Below are positions 2,056-26,025 of a DNA stretch of 44,395 nucleotides, one piece after another. Origin of the DNA: Bacteroidota bacterium (GTDB lineage Bacteria > Bacteroidota > Bacteroidia > Flavobacteriales_D > Sanyastnellaceae); contig JAQBTQ010000021.1 of assembly GCA_027624855.1 (NCBI GenBank), positions 1-44,395 on the forward strand, given 5' to 3'. Made by a program: the position numbers and the translations under genes. Every line of letters begins with the position of its first letter. Positions within the stretch are counted from its first letter, which is position 1. The notes under the pieces were generated by a model. That model saw only the letters and a list, made by a program, of their open reading frames with translations, did no database searches and was not told the DNA's origin.

Positions 2056-5028
2056 ATGAGCCGGCATTATATCCATTTATTGTGGATGGTTATGTCTTGT
2101 CTATTTGTTGGCATTTCAAATGCCCAACTTGTAGGACTAACCTCTGAACTGCACGCTAATTCAGTTTATGGATCAACTCATAGGGTTTACGTTGAATTCG
2201 ATAGTCCTACAGATTACATCACGAGCATTTATGCGCTTGAATCGTATATAGGAGCACCAGACATCATTCTATCTTCAAGTAGCTCAAATGGTTTTTTTCA
2301 GGCTTCCATTAATTATGATTTTGCGGAAGGAGTGAATCCGCTATTTTTTGGAGTATTTCCTGATTTGGCTTACGATTCATGGCTGACCATTGGCGCAGCA
2401 CCGGGAGAAACTGGTGAAGTTCAATCAATCAATTTAAACGGGCCTCTCGCCTCATTCAATAGTGGCGGGTCATTTGATACCGGTGGACTAGAGTTTGGGG
2501 GTTCTTGGTTCACAACCACTCCAAATCCGTTTTTTCCTGATGCGGAAGGCAGAATTCTTATCGCACAGTTGACAACTGAAGAAGATGCGACGATTGAAAT
2601 TCAATGCAATGTTCAATGGAGAAATGCTGCAAATGTCACCACGAACTCTGAGGGGTTGACCTTGGTCATTGGAGATGATGGTTCTGGGTGCACTGATCCA
2701 ACAGCTTGCAACTTCGACAGCGGAGCAACTGCAGATGATGGTTCATGTGCATACCCAGTAGATGAATTTCATGACTGTGCGGGTGAATGTCTTCAGGATG
2801 ATGATAATGATGGCATATGCAATGCGTTTGAAGTACTAGGATGTCCGTATTCCTCAGCTTGCAATTATGATCCGAACGCAACAGAAAATGATGGTTCCTG
2901 TGAATTTCCTGAACCCTACTATGATTGCAATGGGTCTTGCTTCCTGGATTCGGATTCTGACGGTATTTGTGATGCCCTTGAAGTTTTAGGTTGCACAGAT
3001 CTCTCGGCTTGTAATTTTGACGCTACAGCAACCGATTCAGCTCAATGTGATTATCCAGTGACAGGGTACGATTGTGCAGGTGAATGCTTGATGGATTCTG
3101 ATGGTGACGGGGTTTGCGACGCATTTGAAATTGAAGGTTGTCAAAATCCTGTTGCGTGTAATTTCAATGAATCAGCAACGGACCCCGGTATTCCTTGCAT
3201 ATTCTCATATGGTTGTGATTATTGTTCAGGCGAGAATGACGGCAGCGGAACCGTCCTTGAAGGAGATGGTGACAATGACGGTATTTGCGATATAGACGAG
3301 GTAGCCGGTTGTCAGGACTCATGGGCATGTAATTATAATTCCATCGCCACTGATTCAAGTGACTGCATTTATGCCTTGGGCTGTGACACTTGTTCAGGTG
3401 AAGCAGATGGCTCGGGTTTTGTTGTAGACAATGATGCGGATGATGATGGCGTATGTAATGACGTAGAAATAGCAGGATGTACGAACCCAATGGCCTGCAA
3501 CTTCAACGAAAATGCAACCGACGAAGCTGGAAATTGCCTTTTCGCATTGGGTTGTGATCAATGTTCTGGATCTGCAGATGGATTGGGTTATGTGATTGAT
3601 GGCGACTCCGATGACGATGGTGTCTGCGACATCGATGAAGTAACGGGATGCATGGATCCAGTCGCTTGCAATTTTCTTATCACGGCAACAGACGTTGGTC
3701 CTTGTGAGTATCCTGCATCAGGTTACGATTGCCAGGGCAGTTGTCTCAATGACTTGGACAATGACGGCGTTTGCGACGGTTTCGAAATTTCAGGATGTAC
3801 CTACGTAACGGCATGCAATTACGATGCACTCGCCACCGACGACGACGGAAGCTGCAACTACGCCGCTACCGGATTTGATTGTTTGGGGAATTGCTTGTTC
3901 GACGTCGACGGAGATGGGGTATGTGATCAATGGGAGGTAGCGGGCTGCCAGGACGAAAACGCCTGCAATTATGATGCATCCGCTACAAACACTGGAACCT
4001 GCATTTATCCGGAGACGCACTACGATTGTTCAGGAAGCTGCCTAAATGACACCGATGGCGATGGCGTATGCGATGAATTGGAAGTTTTGGGTTGTACAGA
4101 CCATGCATCTTGCAATTACGATTCAGGCGCTACCGACCACGACGGAAGTTGCAACTACGCCGTTTCTGGGTATGATTGTTCGGGAAATTGCTTGTTCGAC
4201 GTCGACGGTGATGGGGTATGCGATCAATGGGAGGTAACGGGCTGCCAGGACGAAAACGCCTGCAATTATGATGCATCCGCTACAAACGCTGGAACCTGCA
4301 TTTATCCGGAGACGCATTACGATTGTTCAGGAAACTGCTTGAATGATACCGATGGCGATGGGGTGTGCGATGAATTGGAAGTTTTGGGGTGTACAGATTA
4401 TGCATCGTGCAATTACGATTCGGACGCTACCGACGACGACGGAAGTTGCAACTACGCCGTTTCTGGGTATGATTGTTCGGGAAATTGCTTGTTCGACGTC
4501 GACGGAGATGGGGTGTGTGATCAATGGGAGGTGACAGGCTGCCAGGACGAAAATGCCTGCAATTATGATGCATCCGCTACAAACGCTGGAACCTGTATTT
4601 ATCCGGACGCGAACTACGATTGCTCGGGAAACTGCCTCAATGACACCGATGGCGATGGAGTATGCGATGAATTGGAGTTTTTGGGTTGTATGGATGAATT
4701 GGCGTCCAATTTTAATTTGTTTGCAACCGATGACAATGGAGGCTGCACCTTTGAAATATTGGGATGCACGTACAGCGATGCTTGTAATTTTGATCCAGAA
4801 GCGACTGCCGATGATGGAGGTTGTATTTGGGATTGCTTTGGCTGTTTGGACCAAGAGGCAATCAACTTTTCTCCTGGTGCTAACCAAGATGATGGAAGCT
4901 GCATGTATTGTACGGAGGAAAACGTCACTACAGAGAACCCCTGTACAGCGGATTTGGATAATGACGGTGTACGAGGCACCCCAGATTTACTCATCTTGCT
5001 TTCATTCTATGGTATGGAGTGTGAGTAG
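2056..5028 (+). CDS. Giant secreted Cys/Asp-rich repeat protein (TSP3-like), 990 aa
   Basis: Exported protein with a signal peptide (residues 1-24, ending SNAQ). An N-terminal beta-rich domain spans about residues 25-205. Sixteen Cys repeats follow (residues 211-952), then a short dockerin-like tail (963-990). Each full repeat is about 50 residues: GC....ACNY...AT..DGSC, then YDC.GNC, then a D.DGDGVCD..EV stretch resembling thrombospondin type 3 calcium-binding repeats. That gives six cysteines per unit. The first 13 units are long; the last three keep only the Cys part. The likely role is an extended calcium-stabilised surface stalk or adhesin, an inference from composition. It lacks a T9SS type A C-terminal domain. 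The N-terminal domain matches the protein at 25057-26025. Units 8-13 are three near-identical 297-base copies. A terminator hairpin follows the stop. Confidence 0.85.
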   Translation: MSRHYIHLLWMVMSCLFVGISNAQLVGLTSELHANSVYGSTHRVYVEFDSPTDYITSIYALESYIGAPDIILSSSSSNGFFQASINYDFAEGVNPLFFGVFPDLAYDSWLTIGAAPGETGEVQSINLNGPLASFNSGGSFDTGGLEFGGSWFTTTPNPFFPDAEGRILIAQLTTEEDATIEIQCNVQWRNAANVTTNSEGLTLVIGDDGSGCTDPTACNFDSGATADDGSCAYPVDEFHDCAGECLQDDDNDGICNAFEVLGCPYSSACNYDPNATENDGSCEFPEPYYDCNGSCFLDSDSDGICDALEVLGCTDLSACNFDATATDSAQCDYPVTGYDCAGECLMDSDGDGVCDAFEIEGCQNPVACNFNESATDPGIPCIFSYGCDYCSGENDGSGTVLEGDGDNDGICDIDEVAGCQDSWACNYNSIATDSSDCIYALGCDTCSGEADGSGFVVDNDADDDGVCNDVEIAGCTNPMACNFNENATDEAGNCLFALGCDQCSGSADGLGYVIDGDSDDDGVCDIDEVTGCMDPVACNFLITATDVGPCEYPASGYDCQGSCLNDLDNDGVCDGFEISGCTYVTACNYDALATDDDGSCNYAATGFDCLGNCLFDVDGDGVCDQWEVAGCQDENACNYDASATNTGTCIYPETHYDCSGSCLNDTDGDGVCDELEVLGCTDHASCNYDSGATDHDGSCNYAVSGYDCSGNCLFDVDGDGVCDQWEVTGCQDENACNYDASATNAGTCIYPETHYDCSGNCLNDTDGDGVCDELEVLGCTDYASCNYDSDATDDDGSCNYAVSGYDCSGNCLFDVDGDGVCDQWEVTGCQDENACNYDASATNAGTCIYPDANYDCSGNCLNDTDGDGVCDELEFLGCMDELASNFNLFATDDNGGCTFEILGCTYSDACNFDPEATADDGGCIWDCFGCLDQEAINFSPGANQDDGSCMYCTEENVTTENPCTADLDNDGVRGTPDLLILLSFYGMECE
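2686..4911 (+). repeat. Array of 16 Cys/Asp-rich protein repeats
   Basis: Coding tandem repeat inside the 990-aa protein. The unit core is G-C-x4-A-C-N-[YF]-x3-A-T-x-D-D-G-S-C, followed in the first 13 units by a linker with two cysteines and an acidic D-x-D-x-D-G-[VI]-C-[DN]-x2-E-[VI] segment. Units 4-6 carry a longer linker with GCD.CSG and DG.G.V.(D/E)GD. Units 14-16 are short, without the acidic segment. Confidence 0.9.
3793..4683 (+). repeat. Three tandem copies of a 297-bp higher-order repeat
   Basis: Two protein units (99 codons) form a higher-order block starting at 3793, 4090 and 4387. Blocks two and three differ at 7 of 99 residues and at roughly 28 of 297 bases by eye, so they were duplicated or homogenised recently. 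Block one is slightly more divergent, mainly in its first 30 codons. Confidence 0.88.
4942..5028 (+). other. Dockerin-like C-terminal tag of the 990-aa protein
   Basis: The last 28 residues contain C-T-A-D-L-D-N-D-G-V-R-G-T followed by PDLLILLSFYGMEC. The pattern D-L-[DN]-x-D-x-[VI]-x-G-T-x-D-L-L-I-L-L-S-x-[YF]-G-x-x-C is shared with the end of the 1503-aa protein. It resembles one calcium-binding half of a type I dockerin flanked by cysteines. Confidence 0.7.
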
Positions 5029-5041
5029 AATGTTCAGGGAC

Positions 5042-5070
5042 AAAAAAACCCTCCGATTGGGAGGGTTTTT
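5042..5070. terminator. Bidirectional rho-independent terminator
   Basis: Six-base GC-rich stem (CCCTCC at 5049-5054 with GGAGGG at 5060-5065), preceded by a run of seven A and followed by five T. It can therefore end transcription from both the + strand repeat gene and the convergent RRM gene. Confidence 0.8.
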
Positions 5071-5098
5071 GAAATGCAAGTCTCTTAATCCGAAACAA

Positions 5099-5350
5099 TT
5101 ACCTTCGTTCTCTCGCTTCGCTTTCGTTGCAGCGGATTGCTCGGCCCATGAGATCTTTGCCTTCCATGGCTTCTAAGGCCGCTCTGGCTTCATCATCATT
5201 GGGCATTTCAACAAACCCAAAACCTCGACTCCTTCCGGTTTCTCGATCATGGATGACTTTGGCTCGTTCTACCGCTCCGTGAGCTTCGAACGCTTCTCGG
5301 AGGGCAATGTCATCGACACCCCATGCGAGGTTTCCTACAAATATGTTCAC
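5099..5350 (-). CDS. Small RNA-binding protein with one RRM domain
   Basis: An 83-residue single-RRM protein of the glycine-poor bacterial Rbp type. RNP2 is IFVGNL (residues 3-8) and RNP1 is RGFGFVEM (42-49), with the usual beta-alpha-beta spacing, and the tail is short and charged (ESEARERR). The start chosen is the GTG at 5350, because family members typically begin MNIFVGNL. An ATG 13 codons upstream (5389) would add a hydrophobic extension unlike the family. Such proteins bind single-stranded RNA in the cytoplasm and are often cold- or stress-responsive in Bacteroidota and cyanobacteria; the target here is unknown. The gene is convergent with the 990-aa repeat gene and divergent from the 1503-aa repeat gene. 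Confidence 0.87.
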   Translation of the reverse strand: MNIFVGNLAWGVDDIALREAFEAHGAVERAKVIHDRETGRSRGFGFVEMPNDDEARAALEAMEGKDLMGRAIRCNESEARERR

Positions 5351-5539
5351 GCTAAATAGTGTTTTAAAGTGCGAAAGTACACCAACCACAAGTCAAAATG
5401 ACATTTTCCCAAAATTATCGAACCTTTTCTGGAAATATTCGTAAGAGTAGTCGAATAAAATTTGATAGCGTAATACCCGTTCATCTTGCGGATTAATAGA
5501 TAAAAATGTTGGAATTAATAATTCGTCGACTTTTTTTTG

Positions 5540-5547
5540 TATCTTTA
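5540..5547 (+). promoter_or_regulatory. Candidate Bacteroidota -7 element for the 1503-aa repeat gene
   Basis: TATCTTTA matches TAnnTTTG at all but the last base and lies 23 bases before the ATG at 5571, implying a very short leader. No TTTG was found at the expected -33 distance, so the call is weak. Confidence 0.35.
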
Positions 5548-5570
5548 TTTAGAATTATCACAATAACACC

Positions 5571-8500
5571 ATGCGATTTCTACTAATCTTCCTATTGGCT
5601 ATACCTTCCATGGTATTCAGTCAGTTATGTTCTGAACCGTCGCCAATTTCTTATGCAGGTTTTGGAGCCCAACAGACTGAAGCCGATCTATTTTCGAGTA
5701 CTTGGAATCTGAATGATTTAAATACTTCCTCTTATTGGTCCCTAGGTACAGGTGTCAGTGACAACAATTTGTGCATTAAAGAAAATGCCTATGTCACAAC
5801 TTTTCTTGGTGTGAAGAAACGAAATACTACCGCAATATATCCTGGGGCTGACATTCCAGGAGACAACTGGCCAACGGATGGCAATGTTTACTATGTAGAG
5901 CCAGGTTTCAGCCCTTCTTCACTGGACGGCCCAGCTGGGTCTGGTCCAGAAGCAAGTTGGAATATTCTGATGTATGCTGGAATCGATGGAGGAGCTTTCG
6001 ATAGTGTAGATGTGGTGTTACATATTGATTTTGATCCTTGCTTTGGATACGATGAAGAAGACATGTATTCAATCAACATCGGTCAAGCCTTCGATGCCAA
6101 TCCCTTTACCCAAGCTTCGGATTTTTCGTCTTTCGGGATCAACACGAACATGGGATCCACGGAGATTGCAAATTTGAATCCAGCAGGAACAGGATTTGAT
6201 GCAACAGCTGAAGGCTACTACACTTTTGCAATTGAGGTGTTGAATAATTGTGGTACCCGAAAGATGTGGAATGAGATCACTGTTTATGTTCAATCTGAAA
6301 CAACTTCAACAGGTGATCCAGTAGCAGATACCAATGGAAATGGTGTTTATGATGACAACGAAGTATTGGGTTGTCAGAACGACTTAGCTTGTAATTACGA
6401 CTGCACGGCTACAACAAACAGCGGTTGTGAGTATGTTTCTTGTTCTGGTTGCACGGTTGCCGAAGCTTGCAACTACAATCCAGATGCAACCATTGCGGAT
6501 TCAGAATCGTGTGATTATCCGCTTGACTTGTATGGAGCGACGCATTTTGATTGTGACGGGAACTGTTTGAACGACTCAGACAGTGATGGCGTGTGTGATG
6601 AAGATGAGATTTCAGGTTGTCAAGATGCTGCGGCCTGCAATTACAATTCCTCTGCGACGGATGATTCTGGGGCTTGTACTTATCCTGCCACTTACTACGA
6701 TTGTGGAGGAGACTGCTTGAATGATTCAGATGGTGATGGTGTTTGTGATGAATTAGAAATTTTAGGTTGTACGTACAACTTAGCTTGTAACTACAGTGCA
6801 TCTGCCACTGATGACGATGGTTCGTGTGAATATACATCTTGCGCGGGTTGCACAGTTTCAAACGCTTGTAACTACGATGTCAGTAAAACCATTTCGGACT
6901 TGAGCTCTTGTGTTTATGCCACCGGGTGTGACACTTGCTCTGGCGAAACGGATGGTTCAGGAACGGTAATAGACAATGATGCGGATAATGATGGCGTTTG
7001 TGATGCTGATGAGATTGATGGATGCACAAACAGCGCTGCTTGTAACTACGACGCTGCCGCTACAGACGACGACGGAACATGTGCTTCTTTGGATGCTTTG
7101 GGAGTTTGTGGAGGATCTTGCTCGGCAGATACGGACGGCGATGGCATTTGTGATGACATAGACAATTGTACCAATACTTCAGCATGTAATTATGCTGATG
7201 CTGGAAATGCTGCATGTGAAAGTGTTTCTTGTGCTGGTTGCACTGTCGTACAAGCTTGTAACTACGATGCCTTTGCTACTATAAGTTCTGCAACGTGTGT
7301 ATATGCAACGGGTTGTGATTATTGTTCTGGTCAGACAGACGGAACCGGAACTGTAGTAGACGGCGACACAGATAACGACGGAGTTTGCGATGTTTCTGAG
7401 GTGCCAGGTTGTACAAACAGTTCAGCATGTAATTATGATGCTTCTGCAACCGACGACGATGGATCATGCCAATCCAATGATGCATTAGGGGTTTGCGGTG
7501 GTTCATGTGCAGCCGACATTGATGGTGATGGCATTTGTGACGACGCTGACAACTGCACCGACACAACTTCATGCAATTATTCAGATGTAGCTAACGAGGC
7601 TTGTGAAAGTGTTTCTTGTGCTGGATGTACCGTCGTTCAAGCTTGTAATTATGACGCAAGTGCTACGAAAAGCATTCCAACGTGTGTTTACGCATCAGGG
7701 TGCGATACTTGCTCTGGAGAGACAGATGGAACAGGGTCGGTAGTTGACGGAGACACAGACAATGACGGAGTATGCAATGACAATGAAGTTGCTGGTTGCA
7801 CCGATTCAAGTGCACCGAACTTCGATGCGCAAGCGACAGATGACGACGGATCATGTCTTCCGAGCAACTATGGATGTATGATTCCATCAGATTGCAATTA
7901 TGATAGTTCTGCCACGTATTTCGAAATCTCTCTTTGTTCACCGGACAACGGTGGCTCGACTCCTTGTTCAGGTGGCTTAGCTGGTAATCCTCCTCCAGCT
8001 GGTATGATGGCGATTTGTAACAATCCTTCTGCCTGTAATTTCGGATTGGAAGGTGACTGTGAGTGGAGCAGCTGCACTGGTTGCATGAACGAAGATGGCT
8101 GTGATTACGACCCAAACAATTTGTATCCAGTGCCATGTGATTTCGACTCTTGCTACGGATGTACTAACGCTGCAGCAGATAACTATGATGAAACAGCTAC
8201 CAACGATGACGGTTCGTGTGTGATTTCTGGATGCACCAATGATGATGCATGTAATTACAATAGTGCCGCGACTTCAGATGATGGTAGCTGCGACTTCACT
8301 TCTTGTGTAGGTTGCATGGACGCTACTGCTTGTAATTATGATGCTTCTGCAACATTGAACGAGTTGCTCCAGTGTGTATACGCTTCTGGTTGCGACAGTT
8401 GTTCTGGAGAAACCGACGGAACAGGAACCGTTGTGGATGGTGACTCCGACAACGACGGTGTTTGCGATGCAGATGAAGTTGCCGGTTGCACCGATAGCAA

Positions 8501-10082
8501 TGCTTGTAACTACGATGTTAATGCTACCGATAATGATGGCTCGTGCCAGTACCTCGATGCTTGTGGAGTATGCGGCGGACCTGGAGTAGATACTGATGGT
8601 GATGGCGTTTGTGATACAGATGAGATTGCTGGATGCATGAATGATGACGCATGTAATTATGATGCAACAGCTACGGATGATGCTGGTTGTGATTTCACAT
8701 CTTGTGTTGGATGCATGGATGCAACTGCTTGTAACTACGATGCCTCTGCTACATTGAACGAATTATTACAATGCGTTTATGCAACAGGCTGTGATACTTG
8801 CTCTGGTGAGACTGACGGCACCGGTTCTGTAGTTGACGGAGACGCTGATAACGATGGTGTTTGTGACGCTGATGAGGTATCAGGTTGCACGAACGCTAGC
8901 GCCTGTAACTACAATGCGTCAGCAACGGAAGACGATGGTTCATGTGAATTTAATGATGCTTGCGGTGTTTGTGGAGGAAGTGGTGTTGATACCGATGGCG
9001 ATGGAGTTTGTGATGCAGAAGAAGTGGTTGGTTGTATGAACTCAGCGGCTTGTAATTACGACGCAAGTGCAACTGATAATGCAGGTTGTGACTTCACTTC
9101 TTGCGTAGGCTGTATGGATGCTACAGCATGTACTTATGATCCAACAGCTACTTTAAATCAACCTTTGGATTGCGATTACCCAGATGCGGGCTATGATTGC
9201 GCCAATGAATGTTTGAATGATGCCGATGGGGATGGAGTATGTGATGAATTCGAGGTATTAGGCTGTACAGACAGTGATGCGTGTAATTACAGTGCTTCCG
9301 CTACAGAGGAAGATGGTTCATGTAGCTATCCGACAGAAGATTATCTCGACTGTGCAGGTAACTGCTTGACAGATGAGGATGAAGATGGCGTTTGTGATGA
9401 AATCGAAGTACTTGGATGTACAATCGTCACAGCTTGCAACTATGATTCTGATGCTACAGAAAATGATGGCACATGCGAATTTTCTACCTGTGCTGGATGT
9501 ACTGATGCCACAGCCTGTAACTATGATGCTACAGCTACTTTGAGTAACAACGTTACATGCACTTACATTCCTGCTGGTTGGGATGATTGCGATCAAACCA
9601 TTTGTACAGATAGCGACGCTGATGGAATTTGCGATTTCGATGAGCCTGCTGGATGCATTGGAGAATTCAACGAGCCTCATTTGAGCCTAACAGGCGTTGT
9701 AGAAACTGCTGTTGCCACTTCAGATTGGGCTTCTACAGATTTCGCTGGAACTGCATCAGATGATACGGGAGTAAACACTGTGCTTTATGTAGATTTTGCT
9801 GGCCGTCTCGATGACGGACGCTACAGTGTGACCCGTGTTTACACTGTAACAGATGTCTGCGCAAACGTTTCACAAGCTGCTCAGCTGCTGATTGCTGATG
9901 CTTCACATCCCGAAGGATGTACGAATCCGAACGCTACGAGCTACGATGCAGCAGCCATCAACGACGATGGCAGCTGTGATTACTCTCCAGCGTGTTTGGG
10001 TGATTTGAATCTTGACAGCATTGTTGGAACTTCCGACTTGTTGATCTTATTGAGCTCATTCGGTCTACCTTGCCCGGAATAA
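5571..10082 (+). CDS. Giant secreted Cys/Asp-rich repeat protein (TSP3-like), 1503 aa
   Basis: Exported protein with a signal peptide (about residues 1-18, ending VFSQ). A unique N-terminal domain of roughly 240 residues follows, then about 28 Cys repeats. Roughly half the repeats are long, carrying a D.D.DGVCD..E calcium-binding-like segment, and half are short Cys-only units. Between units 27 and 28 (residues 1361-1448) sits a beta-sandwich-like insert with YSVTRVYTVTDVCANVS, resembling the HYR/Ig-like modules of Bacteroidota surface proteins. The protein ends in the same dockerin-like tail as the 990-aa protein. It has no T9SS type A domain. The N-terminal domain is unlike that of the 990-aa protein and I do not recognise it. 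The expected product is a long, disulfide- and calcium-stabilised extracellular fibre or adhesin, inferred from composition only. A strong terminator follows. Confidence 0.85.
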   Translation: MRFLLIFLLAIPSMVFSQLCSEPSPISYAGFGAQQTEADLFSSTWNLNDLNTSSYWSLGTGVSDNNLCIKENAYVTTFLGVKKRNTTAIYPGADIPGDNWPTDGNVYYVEPGFSPSSLDGPAGSGPEASWNILMYAGIDGGAFDSVDVVLHIDFDPCFGYDEEDMYSINIGQAFDANPFTQASDFSSFGINTNMGSTEIANLNPAGTGFDATAEGYYTFAIEVLNNCGTRKMWNEITVYVQSETTSTGDPVADTNGNGVYDDNEVLGCQNDLACNYDCTATTNSGCEYVSCSGCTVAEACNYNPDATIADSESCDYPLDLYGATHFDCDGNCLNDSDSDGVCDEDEISGCQDAAACNYNSSATDDSGACTYPATYYDCGGDCLNDSDGDGVCDELEILGCTYNLACNYSASATDDDGSCEYTSCAGCTVSNACNYDVSKTISDLSSCVYATGCDTCSGETDGSGTVIDNDADNDGVCDADEIDGCTNSAACNYDAAATDDDGTCASLDALGVCGGSCSADTDGDGICDDIDNCTNTSACNYADAGNAACESVSCAGCTVVQACNYDAFATISSATCVYATGCDYCSGQTDGTGTVVDGDTDNDGVCDVSEVPGCTNSSACNYDASATDDDGSCQSNDALGVCGGSCAADIDGDGICDDADNCTDTTSCNYSDVANEACESVSCAGCTVVQACNYDASATKSIPTCVYASGCDTCSGETDGTGSVVDGDTDNDGVCNDNEVAGCTDSSAPNFDAQATDDDGSCLPSNYGCMIPSDCNYDSSATYFEISLCSPDNGGSTPCSGGLAGNPPPAGMMAICNNPSACNFGLEGDCEWSSCTGCMNEDGCDYDPNNLYPVPCDFDSCYGCTNAAADNYDETATNDDGSCVISGCTNDDACNYNSAATSDDGSCDFTSCVGCMDATACNYDASATLNELLQCVYASGCDSCSGETDGTGTVVDGDSDNDGVCDADEVAGCTDSNACNYDVNATDNDGSCQYLDACGVCGGPGVDTDGDGVCDTDEIAGCMNDDACNYDATATDDAGCDFTSCVGCMDATACNYDASATLNELLQCVYATGCDTCSGETDGTGSVVDGDADNDGVCDADEVSGCTNASACNYNASATEDDGSCEFNDACGVCGGSGVDTDGDGVCDAEEVVGCMNSAACNYDASATDNAGCDFTSCVGCMDATACTYDPTATLNQPLDCDYPDAGYDCANECLNDADGDGVCDEFEVLGCTDSDACNYSASATEEDGSCSYPTEDYLDCAGNCLTDEDEDGVCDEIEVLGCTIVTACNYDSDATENDGTCEFSTCAGCTDATACNYDATATLSNNVTCTYIPAGWDDCDQTICTDSDADGICDFDEPAGCIGEFNEPHLSLTGVVETAVATSDWASTDFAGTASDDTGVNTVLYVDFAGRLDDGRYSVTRVYTVTDVCANVSQAAQLLIADASHPEGCTNPNATSYDAAAINDDGSCDYSPACLGDLNLDSIVGTSDLLILLSSFGLPCPE
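6369..9983 (+). repeat. Array of about 28 Cys/Asp-rich protein repeats
   Basis: Same family as the array at 2686-4911, with a GC...ACNYD..AT core, but long and short units alternate. One long variant has GCD.CSGETDGTG.VVDGD.DNDGVCD; another has CGVCGG followed by D.DGDG(V/I)CD. The array is interrupted by a non-repeat domain at 9651-9914 before the last unit. Confidence 0.88.
8310..9107 (+). repeat. Two copies of a 399-bp higher-order repeat, plus a partial third
   Basis: Three protein units (58+49+26 residues) form a block starting at 8310 and 8709; a third copy begins at 9108 and diverges after about 20 codons. The protein copies are very similar, yet the DNA differs at most wobble positions. 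Confidence 0.82.
9993..10082 (+). other. Dockerin-like C-terminal tag of the 1503-aa protein
   Basis: The tail reads C-L-G-D-L-N-L-D-S-I-V-G-T then SDLLILLSSFGLPC. It lines up residue for residue, without gaps, with the tail of the 990-aa protein and is flanked by the same two cysteines. Confidence 0.7.
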
Positions 10083-11877: not shown

Positions 11878-12774
11878 TTACTGGCTGATCACCAATCGCT
11901 GCGTAGTTCGTTGATTTCCTGCCACTACTTCCAAAAAGTATACGCCATTGTCAAGGTTCAGCTCGATGGTTTGTCCCTTATTCATGTTGTTTACGATTTG
12001 TTGGTGTACCAATTGACCATTCAATGCATGAATGCGTAGCGTCGCATTGTTAGGTTGGCCCTTCAGATTGATGTAATTGGTTGCAGGATTGGGTCCAAAG
12101 TTGAATGAGACCTCTGCTGCAGGTGTTGCAATGTCGGTAGGGATAGCGAGTGTGATGTCGTCTACGAAATAGTTTCCGACGGTAGTTCCATCACCCATAC
12201 CGTAGAAATTGATTCCTCCAAAAGGTGAATCAAACGCAAAAGATCCAACTTCGGTACCATCAATCAGGATGGTAACCATGTCGTTGTCTAAGTCGAGTAA
12301 ATGCTTTACTTCAAACCATGTTGCTATCGGGAAGGTGCCAGATCCGACAGTCGCTCCATCTGCAACAATTTGCATGTCTCCTGTGAAGGCAAAAGTGGCT
12401 TCAAAAGCCCAACCTACGCCAGGGGATTGATCTTCTTGAACATTGTAGTAGGCTGAGTTTCCATCTGGAACGTACATCCACCAAGCACCCTCATAAACAC
12501 CCTCGTCCAATCCTGCGAGCAAAACCACATCCATTGGACCACCTGTGGCACTGTTTGCATAAATATTCAATGAGTTCGACCCCGTGTGGGCTTGCTCATC
12601 AGAAATCTGAGCGTCTCCGGCAGAACCTTCTTGTCCAGAAGTCCAAGTAATCCAAACTGGGCTGTCAGAAACATAATCACCTGCAGCGAATCCTTCGAAT
12701 CCTTCCTCATAAAGGGCTTGTGAGAATGAAAGTGTGCTAAAAGCCAAAGTTGCAAAAAGTAAAAATTGCTTCAT
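11878..12774 (-). CDS. T9SS type A sorted protein with laminin-G/concanavalin-like domain
   Basis: 298 residues with a signal peptide (1-18, ending SFSQ). Residues about 22-210 look like a jelly-roll lectin or laminin-G-like domain: an EGFEG start, many aromatic and acidic strands, and a DDIT strand near the end. The last 75 residues form a T9SS type A sorting domain: FNFGPNPATNYINL, then LNGQLV and LDNGVYFLEV, ending in RLVISQ. The protein should cross the outer membrane through the type IX system and be surface-attached or released. Binding of a glycan is plausible, but no catalytic residues are visible. It is transcribed alone, with its own terminator, and is divergent from the DUF2797 gene. 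Confidence 0.85.
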   Translation of the reverse strand: MKQFLLFATLAFSTLSFSQALYEEGFEGFAAGDYVSDSPVWITWTSGQEGSAGDAQISDEQAHTGSNSLNIYANSATGGPMDVVLLAGLDEGVYEGAWWMYVPDGNSAYYNVQEDQSPGVGWAFEATFAFTGDMQIVADGATVGSGTFPIATWFEVKHLLDLDNDMVTILIDGTEVGSFAFDSPFGGINFYGMGDGTTVGNYFVDDITLAIPTDIATPAAEVSFNFGPNPATNYINLKGQPNNATLRIHALNGQLVHQQIVNNMNKGQTIELNLDNGVYFLEVVAGNQRTTQRLVISQ

Positions 12775-25056: not shown

Positions 25057-26025
25057 ATGAAGAACCTTTTCACACTGGCTGCGGCCTCTTTCCTCGCCTT
25101 TGGTGCGAGTGCCAGCAATGTTGAGTTGGTCGTCGAAGCTGTAAATAACGGCGGCCAAGTTGAAGGTAACACGTACCGAGTTTACGCTGTACTTCCCTCA
25201 GCAGAGCATTCATTGCACGCTGTTTTCGCTGACGGCGAGCACGTATTAAACGTGGCTACCACCACATCTTTCTACCAGCACCAATATGGTAGTTTTTCGT
25301 CTTTGGACGTAAACGAGCAAATTGTTGCTTTAGAAGGATCTCTTGCTTATGATAGTTGGGTTACTATTGGAGCTACGAATAGCACCAATAACAACCTATG
25401 GACAGTTGGTGTAGACTATAACAACTTCTTGAATGGTTCTGAATTGACCGTCACTGATGGAGCTTGGTTTGTAGTTCCTACTGACGTTCAGGCTGCTACT
25501 CAAGCTGGAAACCGTGTGTTGTTGATGCAATTGACTACTGACGGAACTGCCACAGGTATCATCAACCTTCAGGGATGGGATGCCGAAGGTGCTGCTTGGA
25601 GAGCTTATGACCTGACTTTCACTTCTACTGATGCTCAAGTATTTGGTTGCACTGACCACAATGCTGCGAACTTCAATGCTGAAGCTACTTACAACGACGG
25701 TTCTTGCTTCGGTGAGAGCAACGGTGCGAGCCATGGCTTGTCAAACATTGATAACACCACTGAGTGGAACATTTTCCCTAACCCAGTTTTCGAAAGCACT
25801 TTCAGCGTCAAATTTGATCGTGAATTGAATTTGGGAGGAGAGAACATCATCTTGGAAGTAACTGATATGTCTGGAAAGGCTGTTATTTCTCAGGAGATTG
25901 CTCAAGAAAACATTGTTGGAGGAAATCGAATCGTAGTAAAGCACGGTTTGTCTGCTGGTAACTACACAGTTTCTGTGAAGCATGCTAACTTCAATGATGC
26001 TCAAAACATTGTTGTTGCGAAGTAA
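25057..26025 (+). CDS. T9SS type A sorted surface protein sharing modules with the 990-aa repeat protein
   Basis: 322 residues. The signal peptide is 1-19 (FGASAS). A beta-rich domain at about 20-195 carries NTYRVYAVLPS, LAYDSWVTIGA and RVLLMQLTTDG. These line up with THRVYVEFDS, LAYDSWLTIGA and RILIAQLTTEE of the 990-aa protein. One Cys repeat follows at 197-217 (GCTDHNAANFNAEATYNDGSC, with one usual Cys replaced by A). The end is a T9SS type A domain (WNIFPNPVFESTFSV ... AGNYTVSV). It is therefore exported through T9SS to the cell surface. A good promoter, a UUCG-loop terminator and a monocistronic layout suggest a high level of expression; this is inference. Function unknown. Confidence 0.87.
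   Translation: MKNLFTLAAASFLAFGASASNVELVVEAVNNGGQVEGNTYRVYAVLPSAEHSLHAVFADGEHVLNVATTTSFYQHQYGSFSSLDVNEQIVALEGSLAYDSWVTIGATNSTNNNLWTVGVDYNNFLNGSELTVTDGAWFVVPTDVQAATQAGNRVLLMQLTTDGTATGIINLQGWDAEGAAWRAYDLTFTSTDAQVFGCTDHNAANFNAEATYNDGSCFGESNGASHGLSNIDNTTEWNIFPNPVFESTFSVKFDRELNLGGENIILEVTDMSGKAVISQEIAQENIVGGNRIVVKHGLSAGNYTVSVKHANFNDAQNIVVAK
25645..25707 (+). repeat. Single copy of the 21-residue Cys repeat
   Basis: GCTD..AANFN.EAT.NDGSC matches the core of the repeat arrays at 2686-4911 and 6369-9983, but stands alone between the N-terminal domain and the T9SS domain. Confidence 0.8.

Follow-up and report, generated by a model that had tools for sequence, protein, structure and literature searches.

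Two giant proteins with a common C-terminal tag

The DNA analysed here (the window) is a 44,395-nucleotide stretch of contig JAQBTQ010000021.1, from the assembly GCA_027624855.1 of a Bacteroidota bacterium of the family Sanyastnellaceae (order Flavobacteriales_D). It codes for two giant proteins, P0001 (990 amino acids; 2056 to 5028, plus strand) and P0002 (1503 amino acids; 5571 to 10082, plus strand). In both of them, long arrays of cysteine-rich GC-T-D and TSP3-like repeats are placed between a leader-like start, recognised by eye, and a short C-terminal unit, the tag, which is the subject of this work. P0001 contains in addition a beta-sandwich module, for which we use our own name CLM, and P0002 an N-terminal domain without assignment.

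The C-terminal end of P0001 reads ...CTADLDNDGVRGTPDLLILLSFYGMEC-E and that of P0002 ...CLGDLNLDSIVGTSDLLILLSSFGLPC-PE. Both follow the pattern C-x2-D-...-D-L-L-x2-L-x2-[FY]-G-x2-C, and the two tags (4942 to 5025 and 9993 to 10079, plus strand) are single repeats with 57% identity. Their last cysteine lies one residue (P0001) and two residues (P0002) before the C-terminal end. An earlier sequence-only reading of the window had located the motif exactly. A profile built from the two tags recovers them in their own genome with E values of 5e-20 and 1e-18, inflated for both by this origin of the profile. The tag had also been held to be better conserved than the N-termini, and this is confirmed: a comparison of the first 235 and 265 residues of the giants is not significant, its best E being 0.85 over 21 columns. 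Neither Pfam nor NCBIfam reports the tag on P0001 or P0002, with no NCBIfam family at E up to 1.

Two explanations starting from the repeats were dropped. GC-T-D repeats are also present on proteins tailed with a sorting domain of the type IX secretion system (T9SS), and good tag matches fall on the terminal unit, which argues against a repeat artefact. Repeats of P0001 match TSP3/EF-hand-like calcium motifs in Pfam; a link to toxins was rejected because the Pfam match of P0001 to a toxin-B calcium-binding domain falls on D-x-D-x-D-G repeats.

Tag proteins of the same genome

The genome of origin comprises 2.29 Mb in 40 contigs. The two-tag profile gave 44 matches in it at E up to 10, and the stretches around these matches hold 34 tag proteins; a later pass over all examined stretches yielded 35 open reading frames (ORFs), the additional one being a frame of 66 amino acids (C39_7103). 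Together the 35 ORFs hold 46 tag copies, 24 ORFs having one and 11 more than one. A profile of a 30-row tag alignment listed 48 copies over the whole genome, a few of which may fall outside the examined stretches. When this profile was column-shuffled (20 versions) or reversed (one version), no ORF of the examined stretches was matched, compared to 35 with the real profile.

The tag is C-terminal in 32 of the 35 ORFs, and the last cysteine of 30 of these 32 stands 0-2 residues from the end. A cysteine among the last five residues is found in 1 of 67 ORFs with a T9SS type A domain (T9SS-A) and in 9 of 192 other ORFs. Of 52 frames taken from relatives, 46 have 0-1 residues after the match; these frames represent the best-scoring loci and some overlap. 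The tag is thus not mostly internal. A crude leader test was positive for 30 of the 34 tag proteins, and other secreted proteins than the giants carry it as well. A Pfam scan of 27 of the 34 gave GH81, M43 and M12B peptidases, endonuclease I, a BD-FAE-like esterase, endonuclease/exonuclease/phosphatase, UnbV/ASPIC, LTD, plastocyanin-like, Kazal and carbohydrate-binding domains, and NCBIfam named one of ten tag proteins a choice-of-anchor B protein. Five consecutive tag-tailed genes lie on a single strand of contig C35 (L047:2628-14701), four of them coding for FG-GAP/UnbV-ASPIC proteins.

Some ORFs depart from the usual arrangement. The only clearly N-terminal copy seen in this genome belongs to C19_85974 (L044:2975-3649, minus strand, contig C19), where the tag occupies residues 24-51, directly behind the leader peptide and ahead of an LTD domain. 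C33_192952 has one first tag unit and a decayed second unit, while C10_44350 and C33_191781 have a terminal unit without the terminal cysteine; one such variant, at the end of a 1227-aa frame on contig C10 (L053), keeps the aspartate and helix positions.

Across 30 tags of the genome, D4, D15, L17 and the last cysteine are invariant, L16 and L20 are kept in at least 90%, and D8 and G9 in at least 70%. The G-T ... L-L-I-L-L-S part of the pattern put forward in the sequence-only reading is peculiar to the two giants. Each of the two flanking cysteines, which that reading had also noted, is kept in 47 of 47 selected single-tag rows (the window tag and 46 of 57 other thinned single tags). Tags contain an acidic pattern of calcium-loop type followed by a helix, located at residues 42-51 of the predicted model.

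Relationship to dockerins

Each tag of the window consists of one loop-helix unit closed by two cysteines, and Dockerin type I (PF00404) matches neither giant. Tandem forms of the tag elsewhere in the genome are recognised: PF00404 scores 28 bits on the tandem tag of an M43 peptidase (cut-off 22.9) and 22.0 bits, slightly below cut-off, on a second tandem tag. The tags of the window may thus work like classical dockerins without being filed as such. NF041540, "GC-type dockerin domain-anchored protein", scores 29.9 bits (cut-off 29) on the tandem tag of the choice-of-anchor B protein; three more of the ten tag proteins scanned match it below cut-off (21.6-26.6 bits) over all or nearly all of the model. 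Its name and model ends can be read as describing a cysteine-bracketed C-terminal module on exported proteins, and the tag is such a module. NF041540 was presumably made for Planctomycetes.

Among PDB sequences, the best match of both tandem and single tag profiles is the cellulosomal dockerin 2y3n_B (1.3e-11 for tandem, 6.8e-9 for single). Below it stand further dockerins and many calmodulins, so the shared calcium loop accounts for part of the signal. A fold search with the single-tag model gave two matches, both with E above 5, and a second look gave none with Z of 2 or more. The label dockerin-like, attached to the tag in the sequence-only reading, corresponds to a database match for the tandem forms; the dockerin models do not match the single forms of the window.

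Exclusion of and exchange with T9SS type A tails

Two other exported proteins of the window carry T9SS type A domains, as had been noticed before. One is coded for at 11878 to 12774 (domain at 11887 to 12093, minus strand; 47.4 bits with TIGR04183, cut-off 23). The other, P0004 (322 amino acids; 25057 to 26025, plus strand), is a T9SS-tailed counterpart of P0001, composed of a CLM module, one GC-T-D repeat and the type A domain (25771 to 26016, plus strand; 30.6 bits). P0001 and P0002 match neither type A (TIGR04183/PF18962) nor, in NCBIfam to E 1, type B (TIGR04131); that scan, in which a type C model may or may not have been represented, reported no type C match.

The genome holds 69 TIGR04183 matches, 66 above and 3 below cut-off. 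ORFs of 67 of them were compared with the 34 tag proteins, and not a single one is common to both sets. At the same time, 20 of the 34 tag proteins share a low-cysteine domain with a T9SS-A protein of the same genome, matches with more than 3% cysteine or shorter than 80 columns having been dropped. The best pair is formed by esterases (68.6% identity over 414 amino acids), followed by the choice-of-anchor B domain (43% over 343) and C38_34506 (33% over 460); the weakest covers 86 columns with E 1e-4. UnbV/ASPIC proteins, LTD and the CLM module are further domains common to tag and T9SS-A proteins.

Esterases were collected from relatives as well, several loci sometimes coming from one genome. 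The 72 named loci comprise 26 with a tag end, 36 with a T9SS end, none with both, one with neither and 9 cut by a contig end. T9SS labels for these loci, for the stretches outside the family and for the CLM survey described below were assigned by a profile of T9SS tails from the own genome rather than by TIGR04183. A tree of 44 esterases needs two changes of the tail label. Both are forced by branches of good support, and a single change is compatible with 0% of 200 bootstrap trees. Two T9SS-tailed esterases, one of them from the window's own genome, fall within the tag clade. A quick tree of 66 rows also gave two changes, with long-branch and outgroup warnings; near-copies and long-branched rows, including own_C29, L242, L243 and L223, were removed from it to obtain the 44. 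Rooted on the T9SS outgroup, the tree reads as a passage from T9SS to tag and back to T9SS. As judged from these comparisons, the tag swaps with the T9SS tail on homologous cargo. The exclusion of T9SS domains has one exception, outside the family: in G674, internal tag matches fall on a T9SS-tailed protein.

Distribution of the tag

Across the phylum the tag was found in 4 of 395 genomes, own genome included, and one of the four (G365) has a weak match that does not end in cysteine. Within the window's family it is present in 98 of 101 genomes, often with 30-80 matches and at the top with at least 82. Two genera of the family, g174 and g189, have 0-2 matches in every genome. The order counts 144 tag genomes among 399; 33 of these lie outside the family, mostly with one match each. 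Tag-bearing esterase records come from metagenome assemblies labelled Flavobacteriales, Crocinitomicaceae, Bacteroidetes, one "bacterium" and one Euryarchaeota.

CLM module as a candidate receptor

The CLM module of P0001 (2116 to 2685 with short flanks, plus strand; profile match 1e-47), with its signature TTYRVY...YDSW.TIG, is common to P0001 and P0004 (25111 to 25638 with short flanks, plus strand), and further copies were collected from the loci; 31 of the 33 listed copies, including that of P0001, form our alignment. AlphaFold2 predicts it with pLDDT 91.5 (P0004 copy) and pTM 0.88. Foldseek found no match to the model at E 0.001. In a second look, 24 of the 50 rows listed were cohesins (Z 5.0-6.2, rmsd about 4-5), standing among adhesins and other sandwiches; for a cohesin-like fold of CLM this is suggestive only. 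The cohesin family PF00963 has no match on the CLM-bearing P0001 and P0004 at E up to 1.

In the examined stretches of the own genome, four T9SS-tailed proteins carry CLM: P0004, C19_552, C19_3069 (three copies) and C19_8094. Nine proteins ending in a tag unit, among which three have four or five copies, contain it as well, as do two frames truncated at a contig end. At least one further CLM gene, C29:523-2310, lies outside these stretches. Of the 101 family genomes, 100 contain CLM. In g174 and g189, the genera poor in tags, its matches are weaker (best E from 1e-6 to 1e-26), and one genome has none.

Co-occurrence and linkage of tag and CLM

Within the family, the number of CLM copies tracks the number of tags with a Spearman coefficient of 0.79, compared to 0.04 for first-look T9SS candidates. 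This sample consists of the first-listed genome of each of 21 genera (21 of 101 genomes), and some counts are lower bounds (tag at least 82, CLM at least 33). Outside the family, 285 genomes of the order (399 minus 114 family genomes) were scored for the tag at E 1e-4 and for CLM at E 1e-5: 31 have both, 2 the tag only, 9 CLM only and 243 neither. CLM is thus present in 31 of 33 tag genomes and in 9 of 252 without the tag (Fisher 5e-31, a value that ignores shared ancestry).

The two are also close to each other on the DNA. In stretches reaching up to 10 kb to each side of a tag, taken from all 33 outside-family tag genomes, a CLM gene lies within the stretch in 29, less than 400 bp from the tag gene in 27, and the nearest one is on the same strand in 29 of 29. 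No ORF of these stretches has both tag and CLM. In G041 the order is CLM, CLM-T9SS, TonB-dependent receptor, CLM-T9SS, Fib_succ_major gene, outer-membrane-barrel-like gene, tag protein, CLM-T9SS of 1217 amino acids and PKD-T9SS, and CLM-T9SS genes flank the tag gene in most other stretches as well. Such operon-like clusters of a tag protein with mostly T9SS-tailed CLM genes were seen at L255-L259, L261-L282, L285 and L286. The tag protein of G041 matches those of 6 of 6 other genomes compared. Its homologues in the window's genome are C38_34506, which is tag-tailed, and C5_36331, which is T9SS-tailed and followed by a homologue of the TonB-dependent receptor; the 1217-aa neighbour has no match in the examined stretches of that genome besides its T9SS tail. 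A homologue of the 1217-aa protein (34% over 729 amino acids) and of the PKD-T9SS protein (31% over 342) is a G424 protein with a Pfam cohesin match.

Linkage is not universal. G524 and G674 are without CLM altogether, the tag match of the latter being the internal repeat mentioned above. G787 and G780 have CLM in the genome, outside the examined stretch; the distance from tag to CLM is 3.7 kb in G645 and 1.6 kb in G729; and second tag genes, of tandem type, in G549, G740 and G686 have no CLM nearby.

Named cohesins were looked for too. A Pfam cohesin as the partner in the own genome was rejected, the single match being below threshold (E 0.15) with a stop inside. At E 0.01, Pfam cohesins occur in 16 of the 101 family genomes, none of them among the 14 of the own genus. 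The clearest case comes from a tag-rich relative, G402 (64 tag matches): its 656-aa protein (L251:433-2403, minus strand) has cohesin modules (Pfam 51.7 bits) and then a C-terminal tandem GC-type tag. Four cohesin repeats, split by eye, were found again by their own profile, which matched no other ORF in the examined loci. This order would be the one expected of an adaptor scaffold, and no other single finding hints as strongly that tag and cohesin are parts of the same system. A multi-cohesin scaffold together with dockerin-bearing proteins in one genome is clearest in G402; the window's genome has such a set only if CLM counts as a cohesin. An adjoining G402 frame (2286-3296, minus strand) has internal dockerin-like units and, by eye, a T9SS-tailed look. 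A cohesin-like partner gene, as envisaged by the sequence-only reading, has thus emerged in part: the possibly cohesin-like CLM module co-occurs with the tag and adjoins it, but Pfam cohesins are rare.

Two further observations concern the surroundings of the giants. Genes like those of MFS sugar transporters and GH17 enzymes lie directly upstream (36-1902); with the tag on a GH81 protein elsewhere in the genome, they possibly indicate use of beta-1,3-glucan. Between the giants, at about 5090-5355 on the minus strand, a small frame resembling an RNA-recognition motif was noticed by eye.

Discussion

We propose that the tag is a dockerin-type plug which holds exported proteins on cohesin-like scaffolds displayed by the T9SS, and give this reading as a whole a probability of roughly 0.6, on sequence grounds. 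According to it, a minimal plug, bracketed by a putative disulphide and probably binding calcium, would sit at the C-terminus of Sec-exported proteins and, in this group of Flavobacteriales, would take the place of the T9SS type A domain on a large share of them. Tagged proteins would be held non-covalently at the cell surface, docked on cohesin-like modules of T9SS-bearing proteins. The best candidate for the receptor is CLM (in the window on the proteins coded for at 2056-5028 and 25057-26025), a candidate by its association with the tag. T9SS-tailed CLM proteins would serve as anchoring scaffolds, tag-tailed giants with several CLM modules as adaptor scaffolds and tagged enzymes as cargo, as in a cellulosome. 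The outer membrane might be crossed by cargo carried along with the T9SS-exported scaffold. Work on cellulosomes indicates that each half of a dockerin can bind. Directly observed are the terminal place of the tag, its avoidance of T9SS domains, the relation of tandem forms to dockerins, the swap of tails on related cargo, and the joint occurrence and closeness of tag and CLM genes; calcium binding, the disulphide, a contact of tag and CLM, the surface location and the route across the outer membrane are deduced.

Several observations weigh against this proposal. A single tag is half a dockerin, and its model (pLDDT 88.4, pTM 0.44) matched no dockerin by fold. Pfam cohesins are not above cut-off in the own genome and are above it in 5 of the 101 family genomes. 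CLM has no match among PDB sequences at E up to 1, and its Z of 5-6, below 8, may reflect just a common jelly-roll, as the search tool itself notes; the best row is not a cohesin. Nine outside-family genomes have CLM without a detected tag and two the tag without CLM, related genomes were counted as independent without ancestry correction, and CLM outside the family has diverged (best E about 1e-10 to 1e-21), its matches often falling into two pieces. Tag-poor genera still hold weak CLM matches, tag and CLM are often on the same protein within the family (nine proteins of the own genome), and the closeness of the genes is also compatible with two unconnected components of a single surface operon.

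Among other explanations, the tag could itself be a T9SS signal of a new class, additional to types A, B and C and read directly by the translocon or by a dedicated shuttle without any cohesin-like receptor; we regard this as rather unlikely. The exchange of tag and type A on the same cargo and the exclusion of T9SS domains would both agree with it, as would the presence of T9SS-A proteins in 101 of 101 family genomes and the opposite lean of tag and T9SS densities per Mb, not significant as it is (Spearman -0.40, p 0.07). Several signal classes, some with their own shuttles, have been published (PMC12618676, PMC10202324). However, the published C-terminal domains (CTDs) are about 100-235 amino acids long, compared to 27-29 for the dockerin-related tag, and the CLM linkage and the tag-ended cohesin protein would be left without explanation. 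A mere calcium-binding, disulphide-closed cap, giving stability or protease protection to periplasmic or otherwise exported proteins with no specific receptor, need not exclude T9SS domains, recur on dozens of differing proteins or co-occur with CLM genes; even with the two constant cysteines, the calcium-type loop and the calcium motifs in the P0001 repeats on its side, we find it quite improbable. That the terminal cysteine is covalently processed or serves as a covalent anchor, as happens with other C-terminal anchor signals, the loop-helix merely presenting it, is hardly credible: its place at the very end in 30 of 32 ORFs would suit such a role, but the first cysteine is equally conserved (47 of 47 selected single forms), which suits a disulphide, and no hydrophobic segment with a basic tail follows by eye, processing enzymes not having been searched for.

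The docking proposal can be extended to a second, non-covalent code of surface sorting, operating family-wide beside the T9SS. Half-dockerins, stapled by a disulphide, on tens of proteins per genome would plug into a previously unrecognised cohesin-like module, the CLM displayed by the T9SS, cargo lacking T9SS domains would be carried out or held by T9SS cargo, and proteins would switch codes in evolution. We consider this extension possible but tentative. The C-terminal domain is what T9SS substrates are usually recognised by, so that in these uncultured bacteria a large part of all exported proteins would be missed or called orphan.

Comparison with known systems

No published description of the tag was found in open-licence literature, surveyed mostly as listed entries, on dockerins (also in connection with PEP-CTERM, Planctomycetes and Flavobacteriales MAGs), cohesins, choice-of-anchor proteins and T9SS sorting. 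PMC12618676 and PMC10202324 deal with the T9SS signals of types A, B and C and with the shuttles that serve them. Alternative classes are established there, and type A holds the same C-terminal place on the same cargo as the tag; unlike the tag, these CTDs are larger domains, and no NCBIfam model matches either giant of the window.

With the GC-type dockerin of NF041540 the tag shares a dockerin-type domain named by NCBI as an anchor, and tandem tags of the own genome align with it from first to last cysteine; most of the tags, among them both of the window, consist of a single repeat, however, and the model reports neither giant. Dockerin type I and the cellulosome offer the calcium loop with helix, one tandem form above the PF00404 cut-off, and a layering of scaffold, adaptor and enzyme that can be drawn from the domain orders of tag and CLM proteins. 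In contrast to them, tags are mostly single and have terminal cysteines, Pfam cohesins are few, the cargo is not evidently cellulolytic and the host possesses a T9SS. In a survey of cellulosome-displaying bacteria, Bacteroidota/Bacteroidetes are not named in the main text (PMC11557425).

Close published precedents are two hypothetical complexes. The planctosome of freshwater Planctomycetes has been proposed as a cohesin/dockerin complex of non-cellulosomal kind, whose constituents include LTD, TSP3 repeats and M12B reprolysin peptidases (PMC6461901). LTD, TSP3 and reprolysin are likewise found on tagged proteins here; the planctosome belongs to another phylum, its anchor is thought to be an LTD, and the available portion of its description mentions neither exchange with the T9SS nor a single-repeat C-terminal tag (PMC6461901). 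The cellulosome-like complex of Ca. Stygibacter (Cloacimonadota) combines enzymes having C-terminal dockerins with a cohesin scaffold that has its own C-terminal surface-attachment domain (PMC8542988), which is the same arrangement as we propose for tag and CLM. It differs in having named cohesin and dockerin domains and few named proteins, in belonging to another phylum, and in that exchange with T9SS is not described in the accessible text (PMC8542988).

If the tag is a plug, it represents a minimal protein-docking handle of about 28 amino acids, has in CLM a new candidate for a receptor module, and offers a case, open to direct test, of cargo trading its T9SS domain for docking. The proposed non-cellulosomal cohesin/dockerin complexes would then reach into the Bacteroidota, where the proteins involved per genome would be far more numerous than in the descriptions of the precedents consulted.

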